From: Desulfobacula sp.
Lineage (GTDB): Bacteria; Desulfobacterota; Desulfobacteria; Desulfobacterales; Desulfobacteraceae
Assembly: GCA_013792075.1 (NCBI GenBank)
Contig: VMSR01000101.1
Coordinates: 1-33,949, forward strand
Reading direction: 5' to 3'
Length of the DNA stretch: 33,949 nucleotides
Positions 1,501-32,601 of the stretch are shown here, one piece after another. The number at the start of each line of letters is the position of its first letter. Position 1 is the first letter of the stretch. Made by a program: the position numbers and the translations under genes. The notes below the pieces were generated by a model. The model saw only the letters and a program-made list of their open reading frames with translations, was not told where the DNA came from and did not search any database.

Positions 1501-1621
1501 TTTATACCATTTATTCTTGATTCGTTGCGACTGCCTGCCGTTTCCAAATCACCGGCTTGCCCGTGTACATTTTGATTGTTGGATAGTGTTGATATTATTT
1601 CTTGGAGGCTCTATTCAGGCG

Positions 1622-1680
1622 TGAAAAACAAATTGGAGACACGATCACTTATTTTTATAATCAAGTGATCGTGTCTCCAG
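1622..1680 (-). terminator. Strong intrinsic terminator after the coiled-coil gene
   Basis: A perfect 17-bp inverted repeat (1634-1650 and 1663-1679) with a 12-nt loop. Read on the minus strand, the stem is followed by T-rich sequence (ATTTGTTTTT, 1633-1624), as expected for a Rho-independent terminator of the gene ending at 1737. On the plus strand no T run follows, so it should act in one direction only. Confidence 0.8.
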
Positions 1681-1736
1681 ATTGTCTATGGGGTGAGGGA
1701 AAACCCTGGTTTCCCCGTTTCAATTCCCAGACAGAA

Positions 1737-2735: not shown

Positions 2736-3058
2736 ATTTAATCTCCATTAACTGATATGTTTACCCTGATATCAACAACCATCCGGATTCCGGCCAGAGC
2801 AGTTATTTCTCTCACAGGGCTTGTTCTTTTTCACACGGCTGCTTATGCTACATGAAAATTGTTGTGATATCTATTTAACCTTATTGGAAATAAGCATCCC
2901 TGGCTGAAAAATGCAACAATAAAAATTTATCATAATTATGTTCCTTGGAACTATTTATCTGATGGGTCTTCTTATCTGTTTTTTTACGTTTTCAAATATC
3001 CGGCTCGTCCGGTTCATTTTTTTGTTGGGATTCAATTAAATATACTTAATTTTCAATT
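2736..3058. other. Intergenic region, probable promoter of the coiled-coil gene
   Basis: About 320 AT-rich bases without a supported gene. It should contain the minus-strand promoter of the coiled-coil gene, but I cannot fix its hexamers. A small palindrome (CTTATT-GGA-AATAAG, 2880-2894) is present. The segment 2947-2960 matches 4427-4440 at 12 of 14 positions, on the two sides of the mobile mystery module. Confidence 0.4.
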
Positions 3059-3640
3059 TCAGGATCTAACAAATTCAAGCAACAGAGAATAATCATGCTC
3101 ATCTGCCATTTTTAAAGCTTTTATATATTCTTTTCTGGTTTTATTATGATTAGCAAGACTCTCTCCACCCCAAGAGAAAACTTTTGTAGCGAATCGTTTT
3201 TCAAGGATTAAATCGGCCATAAGTCTTGCATGCCTTCCATTTCCGTTTGAAAATGGATGGATGAAGACTAACCTGTGGTGAAATCGTGCTGCAACTTCAT
3301 CAGGAGAATATGTATTATATTGTGTCCATGCTTGAGCATCATCACACAATGTTTGCAGTTCCACTTCAATCTGAATGTATGGGATACCGATATTTTTTTG
3401 GGATTTCCTGAATTTCCCTGCCCATTTCCAGATATTGGAAAACATTTTTTTGTGAAGTTTACAAATAAATTCAATATTTATAACATCAGTAGTTTTAAGG
3501 CTCTCACTCCAAATAATCGCCTGGTTGATATTTTCCATTTCTAAAAAATCGAGTTCTCCACGGGTTGTAATATGCGTAGGCAAAAGCCCTTTGAGCTCGT
3601 CATAATCGAGAGGAGTCGCACCATCATCATACGCAATCAT
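3059..3640 (-). CDS. Mobile mystery protein B, Fic/DOC-family protein
   Basis: A 193-residue protein with the full Fic active-site motif HPFSNGNGRHAR at residues 128-139 (HPFx2GNGRx2R). In this fold the His is the catalytic base and the Asn and Arg residues bind the nucleotide phosphates; Fic proteins usually transfer AMP to a target protein side chain. Motif, length and the preceding partner match the family called mobile mystery protein B (TIGR02613). An N-terminal helix (residues 30-45, around EMENINQA) sits where many Fic proteins carry an inhibitory helix, but the classical [S/T]xxxE[G/N] motif is not clearly intact. Its ATG shares one base with the stop of protein A (TAATG), so translation is very likely coupled. 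A toxin-like or signalling role is inferred from the partner and fold; the target is unknown. Confidence 0.9.
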   Translation of the reverse strand: MIAYDDGATPLDYDELKGLLPTHITTRGELDFLEMENINQAIIWSESLKTTDVINIEFICKLHKKMFSNIWKWAGKFRKSQKNIGIPYIQIEVELQTLCDDAQAWTQYNTYSPDEVAARFHHRLVFIHPFSNGNGRHARLMADLILEKRFATKVFSWGGESLANHNKTRKEYIKALKMADEHDYSLLLEFVRS

Positions 3641-4107
3641 TATTTATCTTCCTCCCACAATATAGACGGCGAATCAATTATCTCGTCTACCATATTGTTA
3701 AATGCCTTTTCAGCATTTTTAGATGAAAGTCCTTGAGCTTCCAAATTCATAGTGTGCATAAGCCTGCTCATTCGTTTTCGGGCGGTAAGTGAAGCTTGTT
3801 TTTTAACAGTATCGTCTAAACTTGTCCGAGGAACAAAACCATAAACAAAAACACAATCAAGTTTTTCTGCAACTCGATTCATGGTTTTAAGCGTAAGGCT
3901 TCCTGTAATTTCATCCTGTTCTATTCGAGGGATTCGAGATTTGCTGACACCAAGCCGATTGGCAAATTGTCGCATATTCATCCCTAACGCATCTCGTATT
4001 GCACGAATCCATCCTCTCATCGGCCTATTTACTGAGGCAATAGTCGAAAAACGTTTTAAAGTGTCATCTAATTGTTCTCGAATAATTTTTTTTTGTTTAT
4101 TTTTCAT
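3640..4107 (-). CDS. Mobile mystery protein A, XRE-type regulator
   Basis: A protein of about 155 residues with a helix-turn-helix of the XRE type (IRDALGMNMRQFANRLGVSKSRIPRIEQDE), following a conserved-looking RPMRGWIRAIRDALG segment. This layout, and the Fic partner directly downstream, match mobile mystery protein A (TIGR02612). It probably binds the palindromes in its own promoter and represses the pair, as XRE antitoxins and repressors do. Start choice is uncertain: in-frame GTG (4128) and ATGs (4122, 4116, 4107) all lack a clear Shine-Dalgarno site. The ATG at 4107 is chosen because the following MKNKQKK...QLD segment looks like the usual family N-terminus. The 3' end overlaps the Fic gene by one base. 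Confidence 0.85.
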   Translation of the reverse strand: MKNKQKKIIREQLDDTLKRFSTIASVNRPMRGWIRAIRDALGMNMRQFANRLGVSKSRIPRIEQDEITGSLTLKTMNRVAEKLDCVFVYGFVPRTSLDDTVKKQASLTARKRMSRLMHTMNLEAQGLSSKNAEKAFNNMVDEIIDSPSILWEEDK

Positions 4108-4146
4108 ATCGGTCATACTCATATACACGTGTAATAGTTATAAGTT

Positions 4147-10204: not shown

Positions 10205-10239
10205 CCTGTTTGACCGTTACCATACCCCGAACAAACAGG
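10205..10239. promoter_or_regulatory. Inverted repeat in the hydrolase/pepF divergent control region
   Basis: Perfect 8-bp arms (CCTGTTTG at 10205-10212 and CAAACAGG at 10232-10239) separated by 19 nt lie between the two divergent genes. It could be an operator or a leader hairpin. No protein partner can be assigned. Confidence 0.35.
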
Positions 10240-10335
10240 GAAATACATCCTTTTTTTATCAGCTTCTTGACAAAGCCCCCCTATCCGAGAAGAATAGAAA
10301 TGATACGGTCTGCCATCAAAAGACAAGGAGCTGCC

Positions 10336-12150
10336 ATGAGTGACATTAGAACCCGACAGGAAATCCCGGAGAACGACTGCTGGGATCTTACCCCCCTTTT
10401 TTCATCGGACAAGGACTGGGAGAGTCTTTATAAAAACCTGGAGGGCCGGATATCCGGCTATGAAGACTTCAGAGGAAGGCTTTCTGAATCCTTTGATGCG
10501 TTCAAGGCCTGCCTTGATTTTGACACCGCCATGGCCAGGGACCTGGATAAAATTTACACCTATGCCCATTTGAAAAACGATGAAGACAAGACCAACGTCC
10601 ATGGAGACGGTTTGTTCCAGCGGGCAGCAAATCTTTCCACCCGGATTTTCGACGCAGCAAGCTTTATTACCCCCCAGATCCAGGCAATTTCCGGCCAGAC
10701 GATAGCAGAATTTCTCAGGGAACCCTCCATTTCAGACTATCGGTTCTACCTTGAGCGCATCCTCCGGACCATTCCCCACACCCGCAGTGAGGAGGTGGAA
10801 CAACTCCTTGCCGTGGCAGGCGAAACGCTTTCGGCCCCCCGGCAGATCTTTGGCCAGCTGGACAATGCAGACCTTTCCTTCGGTACCCTGACCGATCCCC
10901 AGGGAAAGAGCGTTTCCTTAACCCATGGCAATTTCATCCTCCTGTTGAGCCACAAGGACCGAAATTTCAGGCAAAAGGTCTTTTCCCAATATTACCGGGT
11001 GTATGAAAATCACAAACACACCCTTGCTGCTGCCCTGTCGGCCTCTGTTAAAAAAGATCTGTTTTATGCCAGAGCAAGGCAATTTTCCCATGCACGCCAG
11101 TCGGCCCTTTTTTATGACAATATAGACACCTCTGTCTATGACACCCTGATCACAAACGTCAAAAAAAACCTCGGCCCTTTGCATTGTTTTCTTGATTTCA
11201 GGGCAAAAGCCATGGGCCTGGATGCGCTGCACGTATACGACACCTATGTCCCCATTGTCGGGGATATTGCGTTTCACATGCCCTATGAAGAGGCGGTTGA
11301 CACCTGTATTGCCGCCCTGGCACCCCTGGGAGAAGAATACGGCACTATTTTAAAACAAGGACTGACCCGGGGCTGGGTGGACCGGTATGAAAACAAGGGC
11401 AAACGAAGCGGGGCCTATTCTTCCGGGTGCTATGACAGCCCCCCCTATATCCTGATAAATTATGAAGAAAAATCCATCAACAGCCTTTTTACCCTGATCC
11501 ACGAGGCCGGTCATTCCATGCATTCCTATTATTCCCGGAGGCATCAGCCCTATCCCACCCATAATTACAGCATTTTTGTGGCAGAGGTAGCCTCCACCTT
11601 AAATGAGACGCTTCTGGGCCAATACCTGCTTAAAAAATATGCCGATGATCCCCGGATGAAGGCCTATATCCTGAACCGGGAAATCGAAAATATCCGGGCC
11701 ACCTTTTTCAGGCAGACCCTGTTTGCCGAATTCGAACAGCAAATCCATACCCTTGCCGCCCAAAACAAGCCGTTGACCCTGGAAGCCCTTACAATGGAAT
11801 ACAAAGGGCTGTTAAAAACCTATTTCAGGGACCACATGGTGATAGATGAGCCCCTGGGCCTTGAATGCCTGCGCATCCCCCATTTTTATTCCAGCTTCTA
11901 TGTCTACCAGTACGCCACCGGCATATCCGCCGCCCTGGCCATTTCCAGGCGGATCCAGGCCCTGGGCCAGGCCGCCGTGGACGACTATCTTGGATTTCTT
12001 GCCCTCGGAGGAAGCCTGTTCCCCATGGATGCGCTTAAAACGGCCGGGGTTTCCATGGCAGAACCTGCCCCGGTGTTGGAAACCATCACCCACTTTGAAA
12101 CCTGCGTGCATGCCCTGGAGACCATATGGAATACCCGTTTAAACCCATAG
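10336..12150 (+). CDS. pepF: Oligoendopeptidase F family zinc metallopeptidase (M3B)
   Basis: A 604-residue cytoplasmic peptidase, the usual length for the PepF group. The zinc site is HEAGH: His389, catalytic Glu390, His393, with Glu417 in FVAEVAS as third ligand. The C-terminal Tyr/His region (IPHFYSSFYVYQYATG), which in M3 enzymes contacts substrate, is intact. Such enzymes cut short peptides (roughly 5-20 residues) inside the cell. The start at 10336 is chosen because AAGGAG lies 5 nt upstream; the open frame runs back to 10210 but has no such site and no family match. Its 3' end overlaps trmO by 25 bp, so the two are probably one transcript. A role in digesting peptides brought in by the dpp system nearby is plausible but not shown. 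Confidence 0.94.
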   Translation: MSDIRTRQEIPENDCWDLTPLFSSDKDWESLYKNLEGRISGYEDFRGRLSESFDAFKACLDFDTAMARDLDKIYTYAHLKNDEDKTNVHGDGLFQRAANLSTRIFDAASFITPQIQAISGQTIAEFLREPSISDYRFYLERILRTIPHTRSEEVEQLLAVAGETLSAPRQIFGQLDNADLSFGTLTDPQGKSVSLTHGNFILLLSHKDRNFRQKVFSQYYRVYENHKHTLAAALSASVKKDLFYARARQFSHARQSALFYDNIDTSVYDTLITNVKKNLGPLHCFLDFRAKAMGLDALHVYDTYVPIVGDIAFHMPYEEAVDTCIAALAPLGEEYGTILKQGLTRGWVDRYENKGKRSGAYSSGCYDSPPYILINYEEKSINSLFTLIHEAGHSMHSYYSRRHQPYPTHNYSIFVAEVASTLNETLLGQYLLKKYADDPRMKAYILNREIENIRATFFRQTLFAEFEQQIHTLAAQNKPLTLEALTMEYKGLLKTYFRDHMVIDEPLGLECLRIPHFYSSFYVYQYATGISAALAISRRIQALGQAAVDDYLGFLALGGSLFPMDALKTAGVSMAEPAPVLETITHFETCVHALETIWNTRLNP

Positions 12151-12949: not shown

Positions 12950-15310
12950 TTAAAAAGGGTCATGGGCCGTGCGAAGAATGATCTCCTCCTGGAGGGCAGA
13001 GGTCAGGTCCACAAAATAGTCTGAGTAGCCGGCCACCCGGACGATGAGGTCCCTGTATTGTTCCGGGTTTTCCTGGGCTTTTCTCAGGGTTTTTCCATCC
13101 ACCACGTTAAACTGAATATGGTGGCCGTCCATCTTGAAGTACGAACGGATCAGATGCACCAGGGCGGTTATGCCCTGGTCCGTTTCCAGAAATTGGGGCA
13201 GAAATTTCTGGTTGAGCAGGGTGCCGCCGGTCTTTAGATGGTCAATTTTGGCAGCAGATTTCAACACCGCAGTAGGACCGCAATGGTCGGCTCCCTGGAC
13301 CGGGGAGATCCCTTCGGAAAAGGGGATGCCGGATTTTCGGCCGTCGGGCAGGGCGCCGGTGATTTCCCCGAAATAGACATGGCAGGTGGTGGGCAGAAGA
13401 TTGATCCGATACACCCCTCCCCTGGCATTGGGTTTGCCGGTAACCGCCTTGTGGTATGCCGAGAAAACATCCTGGAGGACCCCGTCGGCATCGTCATCGT
13501 CGTTGCCGTATTTGGGGGCGGCAACAAGCGTATGAAGCACCCGGTCCTCTTGTTCAAAATTAGTTGCAAGGGCCGCCAGAAGGGTTTCCATGGACAGGCT
13601 TTTTTGCTCGTAAACCGTGTACTTTATGGCAGACAGGCAATCGGTGATGGTGCCCATCCCCACCCCCTGGATATAGGAGGTATTGTACCTGGCCCCGCCC
13701 TGGTTATAGTCCTTCCCCTTCTGAATACAGTCCTCGGTCACAAGGGACAACAGGGGCACCGGCATGTACCGGGCATTGATCTGCTCAATGATGTTGGAAC
13801 CGCGCATCTTGATGGCCACAAAATGCGCCACCTGGCAGACATAGGCCTCAAAGAGCCGGTCATAGGTGTCAAACCCAAGGGGATCACCGGTCCTGGGGCC
13901 GATCTGCTTTTGAGTACGGGGATCCCAGCCGTTGTTCAGGGTAATTTCCAATATCTTTGGCAGGTTAAAATACCCGGTCAGAATATAGGCTTCCCTGCCA
14001 AAGGCGCCGGCTTCCACACACCCGGAAGCCCCGGCCTTTCTGGCATCTTCCACAGACTTGCCCTGGAGGAGCATTTCCTGGACAATGGCATCGGTATTAA
14101 AAACCGAGGGCTGGCCAAAGCCTGTGGCAATGATTTTCAATGCCCTTCTGACAAACCGGTCGGGATTTTTTTTCGACACCTGGACCATGGTGCTGGGCTG
14201 GAGCAGGCGCATTTCTTCAATGACATCCAGGATCAAATAAGTCAGGTCATTGACCCCGTCCTTGTTGTCCTCTGTCACCCCCCCCAGGTTGATCAGACAA
14301 AAATCCACATAGGTATTGCTTTCCTTTGCTGTCACCCCCACCTTGGGCGGTGCCGGGTGGTTGTGAAACTTTATCCAGAAACAGCAGAGAAGCTCCCTGG
14401 CTTTCTCCCGGGTGAGACGGCCTGCCGCAATGTCCTGTTTATAAAAGGGGTAGAGGTTCTGGTCCAGACGCCCCGGGTTATAGGCATCCCAGGGATTGAG
14501 TTCTGTTATCACCCCCACATGGAGAAACCAATAATACTGGAGGGCTTCGTGGAAGGTGTCGGGTCTGTGTTCCGGTACTTTTCTGCAGATCTTTGCCAGG
14601 TCCTTAAGCTCCTGTTTTCTTTTGGGAACCGCCTCATTTTCGGCCAGTTCTTCCAGGGCATCAGCATGGCGATTGGCAAAAGCGATCAGGGCATCGGCTG
14701 CAATATCAAGGGAGTTTAAGACCTCCTGCCGGTCAAGGGCCCGGGGATCCTCAAAAAAATCAAGTCTGTCCACGGCCGCCTGAATCCTGGCTTTCAAATC
14801 ACCAAACCCATTGGTGTAGATCAGATCACCGCCGGCAGTATGGCCCGGGGAACGCTGCTCCTGAAATTCTGTAAAAATACCGGCGGAAAAGGCATCCTTC
14901 CAGGAAGTTTCCATGGCGGAAAATATTTTTTCCCGGATGGTTTTGCCCTTCCAGAACGGGATAATGGTCTGGGCATACACCTGTTTTGTCTCCAGAGAAA
15001 CCCCATAGGCCACCCTGGGCCGGGAGTCCAGTATCTCAAGGTCCTCAAGGGAATGGAGACAGACCTCCGGATAGGTGGGGACCGCCTTGGGAAAAGGTCC
15101 CCTTTCCCCAACAATCAGCTCATTGTCATCGATAAAAATCTGCTTGTGGGTAAGCAGATGGGCAAGACACAGGGCCCGCTGAACCGGGACGGACTGGTCC
15201 GGGCTCACCCGGGTTTTATAAAATTGGGTCACCAGCTCCGCCCGCTCATGGGAGAGGGTCACCTTTTTTGCAAGACTCTTTGTTCGCAGCTGCGCTACCC
15301 GTTGATTCAT
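12950..15310 (-). CDS. hypD: Glycyl radical enzyme of the HypD type, probable trans-4-hydroxy-L-proline dehydratase
   Basis: A 786-residue pyruvate-formate-lyase-like enzyme. The glycyl radical loop is RVAGYSDYF with Gly761; the thiyl cysteine is Cys431 in GCVEAG with general base Glu433. His157, Asp275, Ser331, Asp336, Phe337, Tyr447 and Thr642 fall three positions below the active-site residues I recall for Clostridioides difficile HypD (His160, Asp278, Ser334, Asp339, Phe340, Tyr450, Thr645). That constant offset supports dehydration of hydroxyproline to pyrroline-5-carboxylate. The start at 15310 is preferred (GGGGGA 5 nt upstream, one base after the activase stop); the frame opens at 15349 but would overlap the activase. 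The residue after Glu433 is Ala, where Thr is common. No proC (pyrroline-5-carboxylate reductase) is nearby, so the substrate is an inference. Confidence 0.85.
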   Translation of the reverse strand: MNQRVAQLRTKSLAKKVTLSHERAELVTQFYKTRVSPDQSVPVQRALCLAHLLTHKQIFIDDNELIVGERGPFPKAVPTYPEVCLHSLEDLEILDSRPRVAYGVSLETKQVYAQTIIPFWKGKTIREKIFSAMETSWKDAFSAGIFTEFQEQRSPGHTAGGDLIYTNGFGDLKARIQAAVDRLDFFEDPRALDRQEVLNSLDIAADALIAFANRHADALEELAENEAVPKRKQELKDLAKICRKVPEHRPDTFHEALQYYWFLHVGVITELNPWDAYNPGRLDQNLYPFYKQDIAAGRLTREKARELLCCFWIKFHNHPAPPKVGVTAKESNTYVDFCLINLGGVTEDNKDGVNDLTYLILDVIEEMRLLQPSTMVQVSKKNPDRFVRRALKIIATGFGQPSVFNTDAIVQEMLLQGKSVEDARKAGASGCVEAGAFGREAYILTGYFNLPKILEITLNNGWDPRTQKQIGPRTGDPLGFDTYDRLFEAYVCQVAHFVAIKMRGSNIIEQINARYMPVPLLSLVTEDCIQKGKDYNQGGARYNTSYIQGVGMGTITDCLSAIKYTVYEQKSLSMETLLAALATNFEQEDRVLHTLVAAPKYGNDDDDADGVLQDVFSAYHKAVTGKPNARGGVYRINLLPTTCHVYFGEITGALPDGRKSGIPFSEGISPVQGADHCGPTAVLKSAAKIDHLKTGGTLLNQKFLPQFLETDQGITALVHLIRSYFKMDGHHIQFNVVDGKTLRKAQENPEQYRDLIVRVAGYSDYFVDLTSALQEEIILRTAHDPF

Positions 15311-15311
15311 T

Positions 15312-16091
15312 TTATCCCCCAATTTTTGTTTTAAACCCGCTGGCCTCAAACCGCTGCCGGACCGCTTCCACCTGTTCTTTTGTGGGAGGACGAATATGGG
15401 TTGCTTTGTTTTTCATGTTCAGCCGCTCATATTTGCCGGCTCCTGTATTATGAAAGGGTAGAATATGAATGTCCCGGTAAAGGGTCTCCCGGGTCAAAAA
15501 TTCAATTATCCCGGTGATATTTTCCCTGGTATCGGTCATGGTCGGAACCAGGGGAAACCGCAGTTTCAGGTCCACCCCGAGGCGGGAAAGCTGTTTAAGA
15601 TTCTCCAGAACCAGCCCCACGGGCTTTCCCGTGGCCGCCTGGTGATCCAGGGGTGCCAAGATCTTGATATCAAAAAGCACCAGATCTGCCTTTGTGGCAG
15701 CAGGTTTCAGAATCTTGAAAGGGGCAAAGCCAGAAGTATCCAGGCAGGTGTGTATTTGCCTTTCACGACAGGCATCCAACAGGGGAAAAAGCAGCTCGGG
15801 ACAAGACAGGGGCTCGCCGCCTGAAAAGGTAACCCCGCCGTTGGAGTCGTCATAAAAAATCAGGTCTTTTTCAATCTCCCTGACCAGGGTTTCCACAAGC
15901 GCCTCTATGGCCGGGACTGTTTCACGGGCAGATGCACCCAAACCCATGGCCTGGCTTTCCGGGTTGTGGCACCAGGCGCAGGCAAGGGGGCATCCCTGGA
16001 AAAACAGAGTGGTCCGGATGCCCGGTCCGTCATGGAGGGAGTATCGCTGGATTTTAAAAACATGGGACCTGATATCTGCCATGGAAAGCAT
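15312..16091 (-). CDS. Glycyl-radical-enzyme activating radical SAM protein
   Basis: A 259-residue activase that would install the glycyl radical on the enzyme encoded next to it. The radical SAM motif is Cys34-x3-Cys38-x2-Cys41 (GCPLACAWCHNPES); DGPGIRTT precedes it and GGVTFSGGEPLS (residues about 85-96) is the S-adenosylmethionine-binding GGE region. Many activases of this family carry an inserted ferredoxin-like domain with eight cysteines after the CxxxCxxC. Here only about 40 residues without cysteines separate the two motifs, as in pyruvate formate-lyase activase. The ATG at 16091 has AGAAGG 5 nt upstream, within the stop region of the LolA-like gene 9 bp away, and the stop is one base before the dehydratase start. 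The two enzymes are tightly coupled. Confidence 0.9.
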   Translation of the reverse strand: MLSMADIRSHVFKIQRYSLHDGPGIRTTLFFQGCPLACAWCHNPESQAMGLGASARETVPAIEALVETLVREIEKDLIFYDDSNGGVTFSGGEPLSCPELLFPLLDACRERQIHTCLDTSGFAPFKILKPAATKADLVLFDIKILAPLDHQAATGKPVGLVLENLKQLSRLGVDLKLRFPLVPTMTDTRENITGIIEFLTRETLYRDIHILPFHNTGAGKYERLNMKNKATHIRPPTKEQVEAVRQRFEASGFKTKIGG

Positions 16092-16100
16092 GCCGGCCTT

Positions 16101-16943
16101 CTAATTGCCCTGCATCATCTGCTGCATTTTCTTTTCAAGTGCTTCTGCCTTCTTTGTTTCCCCATTCTGATACAATCGCTGAATTTCGGTTATCATGTCC
16201 ATCATTTTATCGGCCTGTTGCATGGCTTCCTGGGTATCCGGGGCCGCATCATCATAGCCTTTCACCTGACCAGGATCAAACAAGGAATCCGGGATGCTGG
16301 GGTTGACCTTCAAAGAGTTCACCACCATCTTCTGGACACCTCCTTCACTTTCAACTCGCATCTGCCAGGGAAAAACAAACCCTTTGGTGGTTTTAAAATC
16401 CGAATTGATGATAATTTCTTTTTCTTCCCCATCAAAATATTCTTTCTTCACCAGAGCGTCATTTCGAATATCAATCCAGAGAACTTCATATTCGCCTTCA
16501 TTGTAAATGGCCTTAATTTTGTAACATTCTATTCCGGAAACAGTCTCTTTTGATATATATTCCACCTCCCGGGGTTTTTTATTTTCCTCCCCATCCTGGC
16601 TGTTGGGTTCTTCCATTTTCCCTGTCAAAGGACTGAAAACCCAAGTGGACTTGCCGTCATCAATGATGATGGTTTTCATGCCGACCTCACCCACCATGGG
16701 GTTGGGACTTTTTTTGAGAATGGTTTCTATCCGTGATTTCTTGCCTTTCTTATACAGCGTCACCTGTGTCTCCATGTTGGCGTCAGTCATGGTTTGGACC
16801 AAAACCAATGTATTTGCCAACAAGTCCTTTTTTTTTTCCTGGGTTTCATGCCGGGCAAACACATCCATTCCGTTAAGGGCATACGCCGTGCTGACTCCCA
16901 TGAGCATCAGAATCATTCCATACCTTGTTACTCTTTTGAACAT
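16101..16943 (-). CDS. Exported LolA-like (outer-membrane lipoprotein-sorting-like) protein
   Basis: A 280-residue protein with a cleavable signal peptide (MFKRVTRYGMILMLMGVSTAYA) and no lipobox cysteine, so it is probably periplasmic. The mature part has the beta-strand pattern of LolA-like proteins (about residues 40-220: ANMETQVTLYKKGKKSRIE, IIIDDGKSTWVFSPLTGK, GIECYKIKAIYNEGEYEVLW). This fold binds lipids or hydrophobic ligands. The C-terminal 45 residues are a Met/Gln-rich helix. The start at 16943 has GGAG 6 nt upstream and gives a clean signal peptide; the frame opens earlier at 16997 with no support. It lies between an MBL-fold gene and the activase (9 bp), an odd place for an envelope protein. 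No role in radical enzyme function is known to me. Confidence 0.75.
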   Translation of the reverse strand: MFKRVTRYGMILMLMGVSTAYALNGMDVFARHETQEKKKDLLANTLVLVQTMTDANMETQVTLYKKGKKSRIETILKKSPNPMVGEVGMKTIIIDDGKSTWVFSPLTGKMEEPNSQDGEENKKPREVEYISKETVSGIECYKIKAIYNEGEYEVLWIDIRNDALVKKEYFDGEEKEIIINSDFKTTKGFVFPWQMRVESEGGVQKMVVNSLKVNPSIPDSLFDPGQVKGYDDAAPDTQEAMQQADKMMDMITEIQRLYQNGETKKAEALEKKMQQMMQGN

Positions 16944-16984
16944 TTTTTTCTCCATCCTTGATTTTATCCCAGTGAAACCCAAGT

Positions 16985-17719
16985 CTACTCTTTCCAATTC
17001 CCAAAAGCGGTTTGATTGAACCGGGTGTAACCGTAATGGGATGTAAATATATATTCCACTCCAGGCACCCCTGCCAGCCGGCCAATAGAACTTGCCTGGG
17101 CTACGGAATCCATATTAAAAATTTTATTAAATTGTGTAACCTTCCCGCCTTTTAGCCCCATGGAATCACCTGTGAACAAATAGGTCCCATTCACCAGAAA
17201 ACACATGGATCCGGGCGTATGACCGGGAGTTGATATTCCTTTGATCTCCATTCCGGAAATGGTGACGATCTGATTGTCTTCAAGTAATTTATGGGGATAG
17301 TTTAATTTGTTTTTCAAAAATAGAAACCGGGCGGTTTGACCGTTAACCATCTGTTCTTCAGCCCTGGAAAGGTAGATTACGGCTTTTGAAAACAAGCTGC
17401 ATGCGGCAATGTGATCTGGATCCGAATGTGTTAAAAAAATTGCCGCCACCTTTTCCGGGTCGATCTGCAGCCGGCGAAGTTCCCCTTGGATACGGCCTGC
17501 ATCATTCCCGGCGTCAATGGCAACATAGGTGTCATGGGCTTTGATGAGAAACAGGTTGACATATGAATCTTGCACTGCATACACTCCGCCAACAATTTTC
17601 CCCGTGTCCGCACTGGACATTTTCCTGGTTTCCAGGTGAACTTTCACGAGTACCCCGGCACTCAAAAGGACGACCAGGCCGAAAACAGTTCCCAGTATTT
17701 TTTTCGTTGTTTTCCCCAT
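16985..17719 (-). CDS. Membrane-anchored metallo-beta-lactamase-fold hydrolase
   Basis: A 244-residue protein: an N-terminal membrane helix (residues about 8-25, LGTVFGLVVLLSAGVLV) followed by an MBL fold. Metal-site motifs are THSDPDHI (residues about 97-104), GHTPGSM, FTGDSMG and SHYG. The first motif is HxDxDH where most family members have HxHxDH, so one metal ligand may be changed. Family members hydrolyse diverse esters, thioesters or lactones; the substrate here is unknown. The start at 17719 is chosen because GGAG lies 9 nt upstream and the ATG leads straight into the signal anchor; in-frame ATGs at 17728 and 17752 lack a suitably spaced site. It is the first gene of the apparent four-gene run MBL / LolA-like / activase / dehydratase, with a 41-bp gap to the next gene. 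Confidence 0.85.
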   Translation of the reverse strand: MGKTTKKILGTVFGLVVLLSAGVLVKVHLETRKMSSADTGKIVGGVYAVQDSYVNLFLIKAHDTYVAIDAGNDAGRIQGELRRLQIDPEKVAAIFLTHSDPDHIAACSLFSKAVIYLSRAEEQMVNGQTARFLFLKNKLNYPHKLLEDNQIVTISGMEIKGISTPGHTPGSMCFLVNGTYLFTGDSMGLKGGKVTQFNKIFNMDSVAQASSIGRLAGVPGVEYIFTSHYGYTRFNQTAFGNWKE

Positions 17720-17752
17720 AGGAAACATCTCCGAATTCCAAAATATCAGCAA

Positions 17753-18094: not shown

Positions 18095-19117
<1,023 letters not shown>

Positions 19118-19148: not shown

Positions 19149-20108
19149 TTATTTCATATGGCAGGCTGCCAAAATGCCGTTTTGCTTTTCTTCAAGCTCC
19201 GGGGTCTTCTGGGTGCAAATGGGTTCGCACAATTCACACCTCGGATTGAAGGCGCATCCTTCGGGAATATTGCTCAAGGTCGGCATCATACCCGGAATCT
19301 GCCGGAGCTCCTCCCCCGGGACAGTGGCCCCTGGAATCGATCCGATAAGGCCGATGGTATAGGGATGAACCGGAGTGTGCACCACCTTATCCGTAGGGCC
19401 GAACTCAATGATCTTTCCGGCATACATGACGGCAATTTTTTCGGTCACCTGGGACACCACTCCCAGATCATGGGTAATCAAAATCAGGGCCATATTTTCT
19501 GTTTCACAGAGTTCTTGCAGCAGATCCATAATTTCGGCCTGGATGGTTACATCCAGGGCAGTGGTGGGCTCATCGGCGATAATGATGGCGGGATCTGCCA
19601 AAAGGGAAATGGCAATGATGATCCGTTGCCGCATACCCCCGGACAATTCATGGGGGTATTGATCCAGCCGCTCTTCGGGAGACGGAATCTGGACCTTTCT
19701 CAATTTTTCCAGGGCAATGGCCCTGGCATCTGCCTTGGAAATATTACGATGGGCCTGGAGGGTTTCGATCATCTGGAACCCGATGGTGAAAACCGGGTTC
19801 AACGTCATCATGGGATCCTGGAAAATCATGGCAATTCTGTTCCCCCGGATTTTACGCATCTGGGAACCCGTGTAATCGCTGATGCATTTGCCCTCAAAAT
19901 GAATGCTGCCCTTTGAAATAAATCCAGGCTTGCTGATTAGATTGATAATGGAAAAACCGGTCACAGACTTGCCGGCACCGCTTTCCCCCACAATCCCCAG
20001 CCGCTCTCCCTGGTTCAGGGTAAAGCTGACGCCGTCAATTGCCGTTATATCGCCGGACCTTAAAGCAAATTTCACTTCAAGATCCCGCACTTCTAAAAGG
20101 TGAGTCAT
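19149..20108 (-). CDS. dppD: Peptide ABC transporter ATP-binding protein (DppD/OppD type)
   Basis: A 319-residue ATPase subunit. Walker A is GESGAGKSV, the signature is LSGGMRQR, Walker B is IIIADEPTTALDV and the switch is ITHDLG. The C-terminal extension contains CAFNPRCELCEPIC...ACH, the four-cysteine pattern found in D-type subunits. All catalytic motifs are intact. The gene starts 9 bp after the dppC stop; the ATG at 20108 has a weak AAGGA site about 13 nt upstream, so it may depend on coupled translation. With dppF it forms the heterodimeric motor on the cytoplasmic face of the DppBC channel. Confidence 0.93.
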   Translation of the reverse strand: MTHLLEVRDLEVKFALRSGDITAIDGVSFTLNQGERLGIVGESGAGKSVTGFSIINLISKPGFISKGSIHFEGKCISDYTGSQMRKIRGNRIAMIFQDPMMTLNPVFTIGFQMIETLQAHRNISKADARAIALEKLRKVQIPSPEERLDQYPHELSGGMRQRIIIAISLLADPAIIIADEPTTALDVTIQAEIMDLLQELCETENMALILITHDLGVVSQVTEKIAVMYAGKIIEFGPTDKVVHTPVHPYTIGLIGSIPGATVPGEELRQIPGMMPTLSNIPEGCAFNPRCELCEPICTQKTPELEEKQNGILAACHMK

Positions 20109-20117
20109 CCTAAATTT

Positions 20118-20975
20118 CTATCCTTTGTAAAGTTTCGGGTTAAGTACATCCCTGAGCCAGTCACCCAAAAGGTTGATCACAAGGACAAAGACCACCAGCC
20201 AGAGCCCCGGGAAAATGGTAATCCACCAGGAGCCGGAAAAAATGTACTCCTGGCCGGCCCGGATAAGGGATCCCAAAGAGGGTCTGGTCACGGGCATGCC
20301 CAGCCCCAGAAAAGACAGGGCCGCCTCGCTCTGGATAGCACTGGCCACCTGGATGGTGAAAATAACCATCACCGATGTCAGTGAATTTGGCAAAACATGG
20401 CGGAACATGATGGTGAACCTGGGCAACCCTATCACCCGTGCAGCTTCCACATACTCCTTGTTCTTTTCTCCCATGACCGATGCCCGGATGGTCCTGGCAA
20501 ACATGGGCCAGTTGGACAACCCGATGATCAACGTCAAAAGGGGAATCGCCAATCGTTCATAACTTCCCACACCGAATAGCAGCTGGAAGACAGCGCCAAT
20601 GAAAATGGCCACCATGAGATAGGGAAAGGAAAACTGGATATCGGCGATCCGCATGAGAATGGCATCGGTTTTGCCCCCCATGTATCCGGCGGACAGCCCC
20701 AGCACGATGCCGATAAAGGCCTGGAGAGAAACTGCCCCGATGCCAATGATAATAGACGTCCTCAACCCGTAAAACATGGTGGAAAGCATATCCCTGCCCA
20801 TGTTGTCCGTCCCCAGAATAAACTCAGGAGAACCGCCTTCCATCCACATGGGCGGAATTTCGGAATTCATGATGTCTATATTATGCGAATCATAGGGGTT
20901 CATGGGAGATATCCAGGGGGCGGTGATTGCCAGAATGAGAAATATCACCAGGACAATGAAGCTTGCCATGGCCAC
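20118..20975 (-). CDS. dppC: Peptide ABC transporter permease (DppC type), start region disrupted or slippery
   Basis: A permease of 285 residues as read, with about six membrane helices and the EAA loop (YVEAARVIGLPRFTIMFRHVLPN) that docks on the ATPases; GTDNMGRDMLS is the usual periplasmic segment. The first in-frame start is GTG 20975 (ATG 20969, with AAGG 5 nt upstream, is another). However, the frame stays open to 21048 and reads ESYFLYAFRRDKVAMASF, a typical DppC N-terminus without a start codon. An ATG at 21037, overlapping the dppB stop as ATGA, lies one frame off, just before a run of eight A. A ninth A would join ATG to this N-terminus (MKKKLQQFKESYF). So either the sequence or the gene carries a one-base deletion, or slippage restores the frame. 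Confidence 0.85.
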   Translation of the reverse strand: MAMASFIVLVIFLILAITAPWISPMNPYDSHNIDIMNSEIPPMWMEGGSPEFILGTDNMGRDMLSTMFYGLRTSIIIGIGAVSLQAFIGIVLGLSAGYMGGKTDAILMRIADIQFSFPYLMVAIFIGAVFQLLFGVGSYERLAIPLLTLIIGLSNWPMFARTIRASVMGEKNKEYVEAARVIGLPRFTIMFRHVLPNSLTSVMVIFTIQVASAIQSEAALSFLGLGMPVTRPSLGSLIRAGQEYIFSGSWWITIFPGLWLVVFVLVINLLGDWLRDVLNPKLYKG

Positions 20976-21033: not shown

Positions 21034-22017
21034 TCATCTTGTCCCTGCTATTCTAATGGTGGGATTAATAAACCCGTAAATTATATCCACCACTGTGTTC
21101 ACCAATACAAACACACCTGCCACAACCACCAGATAGGCAATGAGCAGAGAGATATCCGACCGCTCGACCGCCTCAAGAAATATAAATCCCATGCCCTGCC
21201 ATTGAAAAACAAGTTCCGTCAAGATGGTAAAGGCAAAGGTGATACCCATCTGCACCCCAAATACCGTTATCACAGGCAGCAAGGTGTTTTTAAAGGCATG
21301 TACCATCCATATCCTGGCAGGAGAAAGGCCCTTGGCCCAGGCGTATTTGATGTACTCGGTTTCAAGAACTTCCATCATTTCAGACCGGATCAGACGGATG
21401 AACAGGGGCAGCATAATCGAAGAAAGAGAGAGGCAGGGAAGAATCAGATGCATGCGACCGTCATGGGTCAAAAATCCTGTTTTCCAATACCCATTGCCAA
21501 AAAGATCAACGGTTTCTCCCCTCCCGTAGGAAGGCAGAATCTGCAAGTTCACGGCAAACAGATAAATGAGCAGAATGGCCGTCAGGAAAACGGGCATGGA
21601 AACCCCCAGGGTTGAAAAACTCATGGTGAAGCGGGATAGAAGGCTCCTGGGTTGCAAGGCCGATTGAATTCCCAGGGGCAGTGAGACAAAAATAATAATC
21701 AGGGCCGTCCCAATGAGCAGTTCTAGGGTTGCCGGCGCATGCCTTACAATGACTTCCAGAGCAGGCTTGTTGTAAATAAAAGACCTGCCCAGGTCTCCTT
21801 TCAGGGCCTGTTTCACAAACCGCGTATATTGAATTAAGAATGGGTCGTTCAACCCCATTTTGTCAGCAATTTGCGCCCGTTCTTCCGGCGTCACCCGCTC
21901 GCCGACCAGATCCCTGACCGGGTCACCGATCTTACTTTTTATTGAGAATCCCACCAGGCTGATGACCATCATGACGACCACGGCCTGGATGATCCTGCGT
22001 ATGATAAATGCAAACAT
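21034..22017 (-). CDS. dppB: Peptide ABC transporter permease (DppB type)
   Basis: A 327-residue inner-membrane permease with an N-terminal helix (FIIRRIIQAVVVMMVISLVGFSI) and five further helices. It has the long periplasmic loop typical of DppB after the first helix (GDPVRDLVGERVTPEERAQIADKMGLNDPF, in part), and the EAA loop at YIKYAWAKGLSPARIWMVHAFKNTLLPV. It forms the channel with DppC. Its stop overlaps a candidate dppC ATG (ATGA). The gene follows dppA by 98 bp containing a stable hairpin, so its expression is probably lower than that of the binding protein. No clear ribosome-binding site is seen ahead of the ATG at 22017. Confidence 0.93.
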   Translation of the reverse strand: MFAFIIRRIIQAVVVMMVISLVGFSIKSKIGDPVRDLVGERVTPEERAQIADKMGLNDPFLIQYTRFVKQALKGDLGRSFIYNKPALEVIVRHAPATLELLIGTALIIIFVSLPLGIQSALQPRSLLSRFTMSFSTLGVSMPVFLTAILLIYLFAVNLQILPSYGRGETVDLFGNGYWKTGFLTHDGRMHLILPCLSLSSIMLPLFIRLIRSEMMEVLETEYIKYAWAKGLSPARIWMVHAFKNTLLPVITVFGVQMGITFAFTILTELVFQWQGMGFIFLEAVERSDISLLIAYLVVVAGVFVLVNTVVDIIYGFINPTIRIAGTR

Positions 22018-22115: not shown

Positions 22116-23666
22116 TTATTCAACGACCAGGTCACCAAAATAGGGGAAATTCATCACATTGATAATGGGTTTAACCTGGATATTCTTTTTGGCGCCATAG
22201 GAATGGTTCTGCCAGTGGAGGGGAACGAAGGCTGCATCGTCATAAAGAATCTGCTCGATTTCCTGGAGCATGGCCGCCCGTTTTTCAAGATTGGTTTCAG
22301 ACTGGGCCGCAACGGTCAGCTCATCTATTTTGGGATTGCAATAGCCGCTGTTATATTGACCGTATCCGGTTTCCTTGTTTTCGCACATCATCAAAAATTC
22401 TGAAAAATTTCCTGAATCTTCCGTGTCTGAATGCCAGCCGATCATCATCATGTCGGCAGCCCTTGCATCAAATTCATTCCAGTACTGGGCTTTGGGCATG
22501 GTTTTCAGGTGCACCTTGATATTGATCTTTCCCAGCATCTGGGCAACGGCCTCGGCAATCTTGGCATCGTTCACATATCGGTCATTGGGTGCCATCATGG
22601 TGATTTCAAACCCTTTTTCAAACCCTGCTTCCTTCATGAGCATTTTGGCTTTTGCAAGGTCATACCGGGGGGTGAGGCTTTCCTTGTAACCGGCATATCC
22701 CCGGGGTCCCTGCTGGGCTGCAACCGTGGCTGTCCCTTTCATGATCTGTTGGACGATTCCGGTGTTGTTGACGGCATGGACAATGGCCTGGCGAACCCGG
22801 ACATCTTTAAAGGCTTCAACCCGTTTCTGGTTCATCTGGAAGGTGATGATCCGGCCGCCGGAAATATTTACAAGTTTAACCTTGTCATCTGAATCTACCC
22901 TGCTGAAATCCTGGGGAGGAACCGGAGAAATGAAATCAACATCCCCGGACAAAAGGGCTGCCACACGTGTGGCGTTTTCCTTGATGGGGGTCAGGATAAT
23001 TTTTGTGACATTACCAGGAGATTTGGTGTCCCAGTAATCGGTGAAGCGTTCCATTTCAAGAACAACACCCAGCTCGCGTTTGGTTGCCCGGAAAGGACCG
23101 GTCCCGGATTCATTGTTCAGGGCAAAGGATTCACCGATTTTTAAAACAGCATCCTTGGGCTGGCCGTTGGCATCCGTACCGGTGTAGAACTCAGAGTCCA
23201 TGGCAAAGAAATAGGTGGCCATATTGAGAAGAAGGGCATAGGGTTTTTTGGTTTTTACATCAATTGTGTAATCATCAACGATAGTGCATCCTTCAAAGGG
23301 GTCGAGAAGACCTTTAAAGTCGACACTGGTTCTCATGCGGTCAAAGGACCATTTCACATCTTTGGCGGTAAAGGTGTTTCCGCTGTGAAATTTCACGCCC
23401 TGTCGGAGGGTAAATCGCATCGTGAGTTCATCCAGCCGTTCCCACTTGGTGGCCAGACGGGGCTCAAAGGTCATTTCCTGGGTCCAGCGAACAAGGGGAT
23501 CAAATACCCAGTGGGACAACTGGAGCATCCCGCCGGACAGCTGAACCTGGGGATCAAGGGATACCGGGTCTGCATCCAGTCCGACTTTAAGCGTCTTTGC
23601 ACCGGCAGAAACGGTGAACGAGATAACCAAAAAAAGGCTCAAGGCCAATAAAACTAATTTTTTCAT
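22116..23666 (-). CDS. dppA: Periplasmic peptide-binding protein (SBP family 5, DppA/OppA-like)
   Basis: A 516-residue solute-binding protein of the family-5 type, which delivers ligand to DppBC. It begins with a cleavable signal peptide (MKKLVLLALSLFLVISFTVSAGA) with no lipobox Cys, so it should be free in the periplasm. KTLKVGLDADPVSLDPQ and LRQGVKFHSGNTFTAKDVKWSFDR are hallmark segments; the remainder has the expected length and domain order. The start at 23666 has GGAGGA directly upstream (spacer 4-5 nt); an earlier ATG at 23678 overlaps that site. It is the first gene of the operon, and an AT-rich upstream region should contain the promoter. Ligands of this family include dipeptides, oligopeptides, opines and nickel chelates, so peptide is only the default guess. 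Confidence 0.93.
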   Translation of the reverse strand: MKKLVLLALSLFLVISFTVSAGAKTLKVGLDADPVSLDPQVQLSGGMLQLSHWVFDPLVRWTQEMTFEPRLATKWERLDELTMRFTLRQGVKFHSGNTFTAKDVKWSFDRMRTSVDFKGLLDPFEGCTIVDDYTIDVKTKKPYALLLNMATYFFAMDSEFYTGTDANGQPKDAVLKIGESFALNNESGTGPFRATKRELGVVLEMERFTDYWDTKSPGNVTKIILTPIKENATRVAALLSGDVDFISPVPPQDFSRVDSDDKVKLVNISGGRIITFQMNQKRVEAFKDVRVRQAIVHAVNNTGIVQQIMKGTATVAAQQGPRGYAGYKESLTPRYDLAKAKMLMKEAGFEKGFEITMMAPNDRYVNDAKIAEAVAQMLGKINIKVHLKTMPKAQYWNEFDARAADMMMIGWHSDTEDSGNFSEFLMMCENKETGYGQYNSGYCNPKIDELTVAAQSETNLEKRAAMLQEIEQILYDDAAFVPLHWQNHSYGAKKNIQVKPIINVMNFPYFGDLVVE

Positions 23667-24404
23667 CCTATCCTCCATACTTAGATTAAAATTATACTGA
23701 AAGAAAGAGATCTCAACCCTTCAATATTTCATAAAAAACCTGCATCTGGCTAAATAGTCTGAAATACCAAAAAAAGTTGATCGGGTCAAGTATTTTTTTC
23801 CTTGTTGATCTTCTGGTAAAATTTATTTTTTAATAAAAAATTGCTTAAAAAATTATGTATTTTCAATATTTTAGCCTTAAAATTTTATATTTCTAAAGAT
23901 TATTACTATTTTGTTGTCAAACAACCCAGGTCACATCCGCCGCCAAACCCCTGTCGTTTTTTCGACCCCCCCTCTCGAATATCCGGTTTGTGCCGAAAAA
24001 GGCTTCATAGATTTAAAACCACATTTTTTTTGCCAGAAGAACGACTCCGGCCGAAGGGCCCCAAGGCTTTGCTTGCGGTCTGAAGATATTATTTTTTTTG
24101 ATAAACAATGTCTACAAAACCATATCAATTTTCTAAAAATAATCGTTGACTATTTAAAAATTTAATGTAATGAATTGTTATTCATTTTTATAAGATTGGG
24201 TTAATGGAAAAGAAATGAAACAAGATAAAATTTATAAATATTTAATTTTATTAGAATAAAAATGATTTTATTCTGTGGCATATAACGAACGACCTCCCAT
24301 TAATATGGATTAATATTAATGAAGGATTGTTCATTTACAAACAGGCGCATAAAAACTTTAACATATCTATTATAGTAACATAAATACCAGGAGGGCATTT
24401 TAAA
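23667..24404. promoter_or_regulatory. 738-bp AT-rich divergent region between dppA and the acyl-CoA dehydrogenase gene
   Basis: No supported gene. It must hold the dpp promoter (minus) and the dehydrogenase promoter (plus). A palindrome AATGAAT-TGTT-ATTCATT lies at 24169-24186, about 220 bp before the dehydrogenase, and the AT-rich symmetric run ATTAATATGGATTAATATTAAT lies around 24299-24320; both are operator candidates. An AGGAGG site (24389-24394) 10 nt before the ATG at 24405 is clear. A GC-richer island near 23930-24080 has only implausible short frames. Confidence 0.45.
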
Positions 24405-26219
24405 ATGGCACAGGTAATTTCCGACCGCAGGGATATCGAATTTGTGCTGCACGAGCAGCTAGAGGCAGAAAATTTATCAAAACTCCATGAAGGCTTTGCA
24501 GATTTTAATAAAAAAACCATTGATCTGATCATTTCCGAAGCAAAAAACTTTGCCGTCAAAGAGATGCTGCCGACCAGCAAGGAAGGGGATGAGCAGGGCT
24601 GCACCCTTGAAAACGGTAAGGTGACCACACCCCAATCCTTCAAACGCCTGTTTGATTTGTTCAATGAAGGCGAATGGCTGGCCCCCACGGAAGATCCCCA
24701 ATGGGGCGGTCAGGGGATGCCCAGAACCGTTGCGTCTGCTGCTGCCGAATATTTCAACGGTGCCAACTATCCGTTTATGATGTACCCGGGACTGACCCAG
24801 GGAGCCGGCCACCTGGTTGAACATTTCGGCACCCAGGAACAAAAAGACATCTACCTGAAAAATATGTATACAGGCAAATGGACCGGCACCATGCTGCTGA
24901 CCGAACCGGGTGCCGGCTCCGATGTGGGTGCGCTGACCACCAAAGCTGTGCCCAATGGGGACGGCACCTATACGATTACCGGTGAAAAAATATTTATTTC
25001 CGGTGGCGAACATGACCTGACCGAAAACATCATCCATCCGGTTCTTGCCCGCATTGAAGGGGCGCCTGCCGGCACCAAGGGTATCTCTTTATTCCTGGTT
25101 CCCAAATTCAGGGTTAATGCCGACGGCACCCCCGGGGAATTCAATGATGTCATCTGCACCGGAATTGAACACAAAATGGGAATCCATGGCAACAGCACCT
25201 GTTCTCTGTCCCTGGGTTCCAAGGGCAATTGCATCGGCACCCTTTTGGGAGAAGCCAACAAGGGCATGAAAGCCATGTTCCTGATGATGAATGCCGCCCG
25301 CCTTTTGGTGGGATTCCAGGGTTTTGCCTGCGCCACAACCGCCTATATGTATGCCCTTGACTATGCCAGAAACAGGGTCCAGGGCAAGGACCTTACCCAA
25401 TTCATGAACCCGGATGCCCCCTCCGTATCTATCTTCCGTCACCCGGATGTCAGACGCCAGCTCATGATGATGAAGGTCAATGTGGAAGGCATCAGATCCC
25501 TTCTGTATTTTGTCATGTTCTGCTCGGATATGGCAAAAGTGGCCCCCACCCAGGCGGAAAAAGACAAATACCAGGGCATTGTCGAGGTTTTGACACCCAT
25601 TGCCAAAGGCTATGTCACAGACCGGTCCTTTGAGGTCTGCAGCCAGGGTATGCAGGTATACGGCGGATATGGCTTCATCGAAGAATATCCCATGGCCCAG
25701 CTTTTACGCGACTGCCGCATCACTCTGATTTACGAAGGTACCAACGGTATCCAGGCCATGGATCTGCTGGGCCGCAAACTGGGCCTGAACAAGGGCAAAC
25801 CCATCATGGATTTGTTCGGCGAAATGCAGAAAACCGTTGCGACAGCCAAAGGGATTCCCGCACTTGAAAAACTGGCCGTCAAGGTGGAAGAGGTGATGAA
25901 CAAACTGGCAGAAGTTGCCATTCACATGGGCCAGACCGCCATGTCAGAAAAAGCGCTTGCAGCCTTTGCCAATGCCCATCCCTTCCAGGATGCCACAGGA
26001 GACGCCACCATGGCATGGATGCTGCTCTGGAGGGCCACAGTGGCTGCCCAGAAGCTTGAAAAGGCCAAGAAAAAAGACATCCCCTTTTACCAGGGCATGA
26101 TCTTATCCCTCCAGTTCTATGTGGAAACCCAATTGCCCATTACCTTGGGCAGATTTGCAGCGTTGATGAACACAAGCTCCGTGGCTGTGGACATTGAGGA
26201 TACCATGTTCCCCAGCTAA
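24405..26219 (+). CDS. Acyl-CoA dehydrogenase, large (about 600-residue) DmdC-like type
   Basis: A 604-residue FAD-dependent dehydrogenase that oxidises an acyl-CoA to the enoyl-CoA. The central segments MLLTEPGAGSDVGAL and TYTITGEKIFISGG are FAD/substrate-binding signatures. The catalytic base is predicted as Glu444 in IYEGTNGIQAMDLLGRK, and QVYGGYGFIEEYPMAQLLRD lies just before it. The length and the extra C-terminal helical domain (about residues 470-600) place it with the long group that includes 3-methylmercaptopropionyl-CoA dehydrogenase (DmdC) and similar enzymes; chain length and substrate cannot be read off. AGGAGG lies 10 nt before the ATG. It is monocistronic, with a strong terminator behind it. 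No electron-transfer flavoprotein genes are nearby. Confidence 0.93.
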   Translation: MAQVISDRRDIEFVLHEQLEAENLSKLHEGFADFNKKTIDLIISEAKNFAVKEMLPTSKEGDEQGCTLENGKVTTPQSFKRLFDLFNEGEWLAPTEDPQWGGQGMPRTVASAAAEYFNGANYPFMMYPGLTQGAGHLVEHFGTQEQKDIYLKNMYTGKWTGTMLLTEPGAGSDVGALTTKAVPNGDGTYTITGEKIFISGGEHDLTENIIHPVLARIEGAPAGTKGISLFLVPKFRVNADGTPGEFNDVICTGIEHKMGIHGNSTCSLSLGSKGNCIGTLLGEANKGMKAMFLMMNAARLLVGFQGFACATTAYMYALDYARNRVQGKDLTQFMNPDAPSVSIFRHPDVRRQLMMMKVNVEGIRSLLYFVMFCSDMAKVAPTQAEKDKYQGIVEVLTPIAKGYVTDRSFEVCSQGMQVYGGYGFIEEYPMAQLLRDCRITLIYEGTNGIQAMDLLGRKLGLNKGKPIMDLFGEMQKTVATAKGIPALEKLAVKVEEVMNKLAEVAIHMGQTAMSEKALAAFANAHPFQDATGDATMAWMLLWRATVAAQKLEKAKKKDIPFYQGMILSLQFYVETQLPITLGRFAALMNTSSVAVDIEDTMFPS

Positions 26220-30836: not shown

Positions 30837-30903
30837 AAATTCGCACCATCAACCATTGAATGCTTTGGAATCTCACACCCCCTAACGGTGAAAGGAAATT
30901 ATT

Positions 30904-32541: not shown

Positions 32542-32554
32542 CTCAAATTTTTTG

Positions 32555-32587
32555 GGGTTCCGGTATGGGTATACCGGAACCCTTTTT
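32555..32587 (+). terminator. Hairpin with T run between hydrogenase large subunit and protease genes
   Basis: A perfect 12-bp stem (32555-32566 with 32571-32582), a GGGT loop and five T. Because the maturation protease gene starts only 14 bp later, this probably works as a partial terminator that sets lower protease expression, rather than as the end of the operon. Confidence 0.8.
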
Positions 32588-32601
32588 CTGTCAGGAAATT
32601 T

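Follow-up and report, generated by a model that had tools for sequence, protein, structure and literature searches.

trans-4-Hydroxy-L-proline dehydratase (HypD) is an already known kind of glycyl radical enzyme, and it was reportedly first described in papers in Science in 2017 and in Gut Microbes in 2018. The present analysis deals with a predicted hypD gene and the activase gene beside it in 33,949 nucleotides of Desulfobacula sp. (contig VMSR01000101.1). This whole stretch, called the window, is contig C96 of a 5.3 Mb assembly that is 98.9% complete. The HypD of Clostridioides difficile (PDB 6vxc) is like that of the window in family, length and the residues supported by mutagenesis in the published passages used here. 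The activase gene is adjacent to hypD in both organisms, according to the relevant section of PMC9044972. proC is also described as adjacent to hypD in C. difficile, whereas it lies on another contig in our case. The two enzymes differ further in sequence, with 415 identities over 779 aligned residues (53%), and the window has alanine in place of threonine after the catalytic glutamate and a peptide importer upstream. A collagen-utilisation cluster of a marine Colwellia metagenome-assembled genome (MAG) groups peptide handling, transport and hydroxyproline catabolism, like the window. In the part of PMC7883544 that describes it, that cluster uses an epimerase and dehydrogenase route, whereas the window encodes a glycyl radical dehydratase.

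HypD activases of the NF043069 type are radical S-adenosylmethionine (SAM) proteins encoded beside hypD, like that of the window, with which they group in the tree. Their long form, with a 299-position model, carries an insert with 7–10 cysteines, whereas the window activase has 259 residues and no insert. A long activase is also encoded beside the HypD of Clostridium thermobutyricum (L091). In a passage of PMC6325248, the ferredoxin-like insertion is assigned to most microcompartment activases and many others, and the pyruvate formate-lyase (PFL) and GRM5 activases are without it. The GRM5 activases serve propanediol dehydratase microcompartments, and are likened to the window activase by this description. 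The 2024 paper PMC11528403 mentions, in the portion consulted, auxiliary clusters "of unknown function" in the majority of activases. A 2014 title in its reference list refers to a domain that 4-hydroxyphenylacetate decarboxylase needs for its radical to last. No paper on insert-free HypD activases or on HypD in collagen-peptide loci was recognised in the literature covered, which did not include the first HypD descriptions.

We consider it highly probable that the window holds a locus by which a Desulfobacterales-type anaerobe uses trans-4-hydroxy-L-proline, with predicted uptake by an Opp importer, HypD, an insert-free activase and ProC. Two features appear less ordinary from the sequences, namely that a broad HypD lineage has the insert-free activase as its usual form, and that such HypDs are repeatedly associated with peptide import and prolyl peptidases. 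The enzyme is known, and its activation module is a variant.

Family and catalytic residues of the window HypD

The longest frame of the gene (12950..15349, reverse strand) opens at TTG. The ATG at 15310, where the initial annotation had started the protein, is present inside it. The protein contains PF02901 and PF01228. It scored 1215.1 bits against the NCBIfam equivalog NF043068 (trans-4-hydroxy-L-proline dehydratase; cut-off 1100). The best match among solved structures was 6vxc (E 2.3e-297, 991 bits) by a wide margin, followed by glycerol dehydratase 1r8w (529 bits), and HplG 7vua gave 386 bits. Since the same Pfam families are shared, the protein could in principle belong to another subgroup, such as the hydroxyproline C-N lyase HplG, glycerol dehydratase or a PFL2-type enzyme. 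This is extremely improbable given the structure scores, and the protein missed the cut-off of the PFL2-3 subfamily model (645 against 678 bits) while it passed that of HypD. In the tree it is placed within the HypD portion, and its nearest rows are 80–83% identical. The closest HypDs bearing names, among the matches listed, are from Desulfobacterales and marine MAGs. The HypD of one genome of the same order (contig G031:C21) is the HypD sequence of the Olavius algarvensis Delta 4 endosymbiont, and that genome appears to be the genome of the worm symbiont.

The passages of PMC7077986 on mutagenesis report that HypD variants at His160, Asp278, Ser334, Asp339, Phe340 and Glu436 were inactive and that variants at Tyr450 and Thr645 were strongly reduced in activity. 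The initial annotation had placed the active-site residues of the window protein at a constant offset of –3 from those of HypD. The offset holds for eight residues through Tyr450, which pair as His160 with His157, Asp278 with Asp275, Ser334 with Ser331, Asp339 with Asp336, Phe340 with Phe337, Cys434 with Cys431, Glu436 with Glu433 and Tyr450 with Tyr447. A one-residue gap after Tyr450 shifts it to –4, so that Thr645 corresponds to Thr641 and the radical Gly765 to Gly761. Thr642, which had been named instead, is the second residue of the same Thr-Thr pair. All of these ten tested catalytic and binding residues are identical in the window HypD. Arg156, Lys326 and the Phe at 152 (6vxc numbering) are also retained. 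Asp292, named in the same part of PMC7077986, was set aside, because both the printed 6vxc sequence and the window HypD have Phe at this position.

Other glycyl radical enzymes, 19 rows (18 distinct) in a single alignment, served to judge the specificity of these residues. Asp was found in 0/19 rows at the Asp278 column and in 0/19 at the Asp339 column, and Lys in 1/19 at the Lys326 column. Because these residues are near-absent in the other enzymes, their retention by chance is excluded. Asp278 and Asp339 are likewise stated, in the section of PMC7077986 concerned, to be not conserved among other eliminases. The HypD residues are kept in the alignment with C. difficile HypD and other glycyl radical enzymes. 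Together with the family and structure matches this upholds the HypD-type assignment made at first, and the predicted function of the gene is trans-4-hydroxy-L-proline dehydratase. A structure model of HypD, built from a 13-sequence alignment, had low confidence near the active site, and no claim is based on it.

The activase and the probable loss of its insert

The activase gene is on the same strand as hypD, and a single base separates its stop codon from the hypD ATG. The Pfam Radical_SAM domain was found with 56.3 bits, and the cluster motif GCPLACAWC and the invariant GGxTxSGGEP motif are retained. The stretch between WCHNPE and GGVTFSGGE has 39 residues and no cysteine, whereas it has 84–87 residues with 8–10 cysteines in the long activases compared. 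The protein scored 267.2 bits against NF043069, under the cut-off of 425, because the cysteine-rich insert is absent. It passed the general activase subfamily model TIGR02494 (256 bits, cut-off 174.35). A structure model built from 22 short activases had a predicted local distance difference test score (pLDDT) of 88.8. Its best PDB match was the PFL activating enzyme (PFL-AE) 3cb8, with a template modelling (TM) score of 0.85 and 31% identity. The window activase therefore shares the insert-free architecture and best fold match with PflA (3cb8, 3c8f), but PflA activates a different enzyme.

The distribution of the two activase forms was analysed over HypD rows, most of them from MAGs, drawn from the genomes of relatives and from 80 collection loci. 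The loci were the best 80 of at least 578, chosen for their similarity to the lineage of the window, and the activase counts describe this sample rather than all HypDs. A row was a frame of at least 700 residues with a phmmer score above 820 against the window HypD, and some rows lie just below the curated cut-off of 1100 (L034, 1097; L131, 1055). The window copy L013 was excluded, and L018 (685 residues) and L020 (465 residues) were too short for the HypD tree. Activases within 1500 bases of hypD were called short when the distance from CxxxCxxC..NP to GGxT was below 60 residues, and otherwise long. HypD above the cut-off was present in 13 of the 39 relatives' genomes searched and, with few candidates scored per genome, in at least 9 of 395 genomes drawn from the phylum (own genome included in both).

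There were 105 HypD rows (104 distinct), with a short activase in 65, a long one in 25 and none in the available DNA in 15. L048 and L006 are identical sequences and both are counted within the 65. The short activases have 34–54 residues and 0–2 cysteines from the motif to GGxT, and the long ones 87–89 residues and 7–10 cysteines. The activase was on the hypD strand in 90/90 rows and, with two exceptions, within 300 bases of hypD. Short activases precede hypD in 65/65 rows, and long ones precede it in 17/25 and follow it in 8/25. Therefore, it is very improbable that the short activase is degenerate and that a long activase elsewhere serves HypD in vivo. The failure at NF043069 and the presence of a long activase on contig C107 of the genome would agree with such a replacement. 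Against it stand the constant position of the short gene before hypD, the retained SAM cluster and GGxTxSGGEP motifs, and the good modelling on PFL-AE.

The two activase forms follow the phylogeny of HypD. On the tree that covers 124 glycyl radical enzymes, the short or long label required a single change, compared with 27 on average after shuffling (0/500 as low), with a support of only 33 for the dividing branch. In a tree of the 90 HypDs with known activase, a quick search with one model, the 65 short rows form one side of one branch, with a support of 99.1 in the Shimodaira-Hasegawa-like approximate likelihood ratio test (SH-aLRT). For the activase tree, the insert was left out of the alignment and PflA served as the root. 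All 90 HypD activases (65 short, 25 long) group together there with one other row (SH-aLRT 93), and PflA falls outside together with 14 of 15 further activases. A swap of the HypD activase for a PflA-type protein is disfavoured by this grouping, whose inner branches are weak. Because the short HypD activases are placed with the HypD activases, their likeness to PflA is read from the sequences as one of architecture rather than of recent descent. The simplest reading is that the insert was lost within the HypD-activase lineage and was not removed by PflA replacement.

We lean towards the view that HypDs fall into two groups by activation mode, and that in one of them the activase would have lost its insert once and still works, as a natural deletion experiment. 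A point that counts against a single loss is that the activase tree needs 8 short/long changes, of which the well-supported branches force only one. The genomes and MAGs that carry the short-activase lineage have the labels Desulfobacterota, Bacteroidota, Calditrichota, Ignavibacteriota, Verrucomicrobiota and Asgard archaea. Insert-bearing and insert-free activases in one enzyme family, split on one branch, make the role of the auxiliary clusters testable with otherwise matched pairs. Since its lineage is without the ferredoxin-type insert, the short activase would presumably receive its electron directly from flavodoxin or ferredoxin, comparable to PFL-AE, which receives it from flavodoxin.

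Three other glycyl radical frames were noticed in the same genome. The enzyme L040 (contig C189, 9473-11821) is below every NCBIfam cut-off shown, and the activase beside it is also without the ferredoxin insert (0 cysteines) and groups outside the HypD activases. L041 (contig C107, 9110-11080) is a glycyl radical enzyme whose scanned 657-residue stretch is under all NCBIfam cut-offs shown, and the long activase near it has eight cysteines in the insert. L042 (contig C226, 130-327, near the contig start) is a frame of about 82 residues with the glycyl radical domain only and below the GrcA cut-offs. It may be a spare-part protein, or else an enzyme of which the assembly has left only the end.

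Substrate residues and neighbours across HypD loci

The ten residues are intact in 65/65 HypDs with a short activase, in 15/15 without an activase in view and in 22/25 with a long one. In L033 and L034 (both 1501-3843, from the window's family), Ser replaces His160. These HypD-like proteins form a separate long branch among the long-activase HypDs, and their substrate is perhaps changed. L131 (1501-3840) has a gap at Asp278 and Thr in place of Glu436. The GC[VIA]E motif was not found in this HypD-like enzyme or in L035 (1501-3843).

The initial annotation had pointed to the alanine after the base glutamate. It is present after Glu433, where C. difficile has Thr437, and it is no oddity, as the 65 short-activase rows are divided among Ala (29), Thr (24) and Ser (12) at this position. 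The 21-row clade that holds the window in the 124-enzyme tree has A or S in 20/20 after removal of one duplicate. Alanine seemed to be a marker of the short activase among the nearest relatives, and was rejected as such over the 65 rows with their mixture of the three residues.

This position bears on the possibility that the main substrate is a related ring compound, such as another hydroxylated proline or pipecolate, and that hydroxyproline is a side activity. The alanine and the 47% of residues that differ from the characterised enzyme would allow it, and the cited passages describe no enzyme of the short-activase lineage as characterised. Such a substrate is nevertheless quite unlikely. 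Every hydrogen-bonding residue that the source passages name for the binding of hydroxyproline is kept, as is the Phe named there, in a comparison limited to these passages, and the residue after the glutamate varies as A, T or S within the lineage itself. In addition, trans-3-hydroxyproline-type, Xaa-Pro peptidase and ornithine cyclodeaminase (OCD) family genes occur near HypDs of the same lineage.

These neighbours were counted in the 80 collection loci, with the clusters named from one representative each. An Xaa-Pro aminopeptidase cluster (representative AMP_N and M24) is near hypD in 16/80 loci, and of the 46 loci in which a same-strand frame starts directly after hypD, 13 have the aminopeptidase gene there. 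By activase class, the aminopeptidase was found in 12/55 short, 1/11 long and 3/14 unknown loci. Peptidase clusters of the S37, S9/DPP-IV and C69 types are near hypD in 7, 4 and 5 of the 80 loci, and at least one of the four clusters in 23/80. A proline-racemase-family protein with a Cys/Thr pair (read by eye in L048) is near hypD in 8/80 loci, and an OCD/mu-crystallin protein accompanies it in 7 of the 8 (7/80). The scanned L048 pair scored under the curated cut-offs (dehydratase 397/540 bits; reductases 245/322 and lower), and the trans-3-hydroxyproline assignment is therefore based on residues and context. From these contents, the short-activase HypD seems to recur in apparent loci for the anaerobic use of collagen peptides, with an importer, prolyl peptidases and trans-3- and trans-4-hydroxyproline dehydratases. 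For the environment, the finding suggests that relatives of marine sulfate reducers turn over collagen hydroxyproline anaerobically in settings other than the gut.

Peptide importer, onward route and other features of the window

The genes discussed here are collected in Table 1, and they include a full OppABCDF-type peptide importer set upstream of the activase on the hypD strand. The order OppABCDF-activase-hypD on one strand is shared by four genomes of the family, namely that of the window and those with L166, L168 and L173. The Opp proteins of the three relatives are 76–91% identical to those of the window, and in L173 the OppF match lies about 270 bases from the activase match. In L043 and L045, an OppA with 78% and 81% identity lies on the other side of hypD.

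Table 1. Coordinates and supporting evidence of the genes around hypD in the window
Feature	Coordinates	Strand	Evidence
Oligoendopeptidase F (PepF)	10210..12150	+, convergent with hypD	TIGR00181 641 bits, cut-off 490.55
hypD (predicted)	12950..15310	–	786 residues from ATG at 15310; NF043068, 6vxc match, catalytic residues
HypD activase (radical SAM; predicted)	15312..16091	–	259 residues from first ATG; CX3CX2C intact, no ferredoxin-type insert
LolA-like outer-membrane lipoprotein-sorting domain protein (PF17131)	16101..16955 (putative start; frame to 16997)	–	Pfam 34.1 bits, cut-off 30
Metallo-beta-lactamase-fold hydrolase	16985..17752	–	PF00753 48.1 bits
OppF/DppF-type ATPase, peptide ABC transporter	18095..19117	–	Pfam ABC_tran and oligo_HPY; synteny
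OppD/DppD-type ATPase	19149..20108	–	Pfam; synteny
OppC/DppC-type permease	20118..20975	–	Pfam; synteny
OppB/DppB-type permease	21034..22017	–	Pfam; synteny
OppA/DppA-type peptide-binding protein (SBP_bac_5)	22116..23678	–	Pfam 290 bits; synteny

The onward route was searched in the whole genome. A search for proC, which the initial annotation had suggested, found it on contig C4 (278 bits, cut-off 196.75), and none of the scanned window proteins was called proC. A trans-3-hydroxyproline dehydratase is also encoded elsewhere in the genome. A Cys/Cys racemase-family protein on contig C282 and an OCD-family protein on C39 are both under all equivalog cut-offs. No Pro_dh match for proline dehydrogenase was found in the genome by a search that was positive in 8 of 14 control genomes, and proline oxidation is therefore disfavoured as the onward route. 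The best match to the 1-pyrroline-5-carboxylate (P5C) dehydrogenase model TIGR01237 had 334 bits against a cut-off of 660, which only 3 of the 14 controls pass. For Stickland-type proline reduction, the PrdA-type reductase subunit PF09338 had no match in the genome and none in any of the 14 controls. Judged from the gene content, the net use is likely to be conversion of hydroxyproline to P5C and then to proline, which would consume reducing power. Hydroxyproline had been proposed as a nitrogen or electron source. Its use is supported by the context of Opp synteny, trans-3-hydroxyproline dehydratase and proC, and the nitrogen supply fits better than the electron source. Because proline dehydrogenase was not found and no P5C dehydrogenase was over the cut-off, an electron sink with proline or nitrogen supply is the better description.

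A scheme for the utilisation of hydroxyproline can be proposed from these genes. Hydroxyproline would probably enter in short collagen-like peptides through OppABCDF and would be freed from them by cytosolic peptidases. PepF is a possible hydrolase of the same peptides, a weak suggestion in view of the general nature of this enzyme. The activase, with one [4Fe-4S] cluster and SAM, would put the radical on Gly761 of HypD. As judged from the corresponding C. difficile residues, the radical would move from Gly761 to Cys431, which would take hydrogen from C5 of hydroxyproline. The identical residues Asp275, Glu433, His157 and Asp336 would handle protons, so that water is lost and P5C is formed. 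ProC would then reduce P5C to proline.

Several observations weigh against this scheme. Of the 9 regions compared from relatives, 6 are without the Opp order (L165, L167 and L169–L172, of which L170 has less than 6 kb upstream), and hypD is split into two frames in L173 (G013), one of the three relatives that have it. In the window itself, the transporter and the activase are separated by a 342-base gap and by the LolA-like and metallo-beta-lactamase-fold genes. Opp systems transport many peptides. It is in other organisms, and not in this window, that prolyl peptidase and trans-3-hydroxyproline genes neighbour hypD, and the neighbourhood counts cover hypD loci only. In addition, proC was not found in the available flanks of the 80 loci with the genome's ProC (E up to 1e-8, half length), and many of these flanks end at contig ends.

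The remaining neighbours are partly conserved. The LolA-like gene sits 9 bases upstream of the activase gene. A homologue of the metallo-beta-lactamase-fold protein lies upstream of activase and hypD in the congeneric L165 and L166 (tblastn 64–66% identity). L165 (G001) retains the opposite flank, with PepF near hypD and TrmO, in place of the Opp order. An acyl-CoA dehydrogenase-family protein (24405-26219) is divergent from the Opp genes in the window, and is beside OppA in L168 and L173 too. A helix-turn-helix protein followed by a Fic/DOC protein on the same strand (3059-4128) looks like a toxin-antitoxin-type pair. NiFe hydrogenase small subunit, large subunit and maturation protease genes are in a row at 29892-33093.

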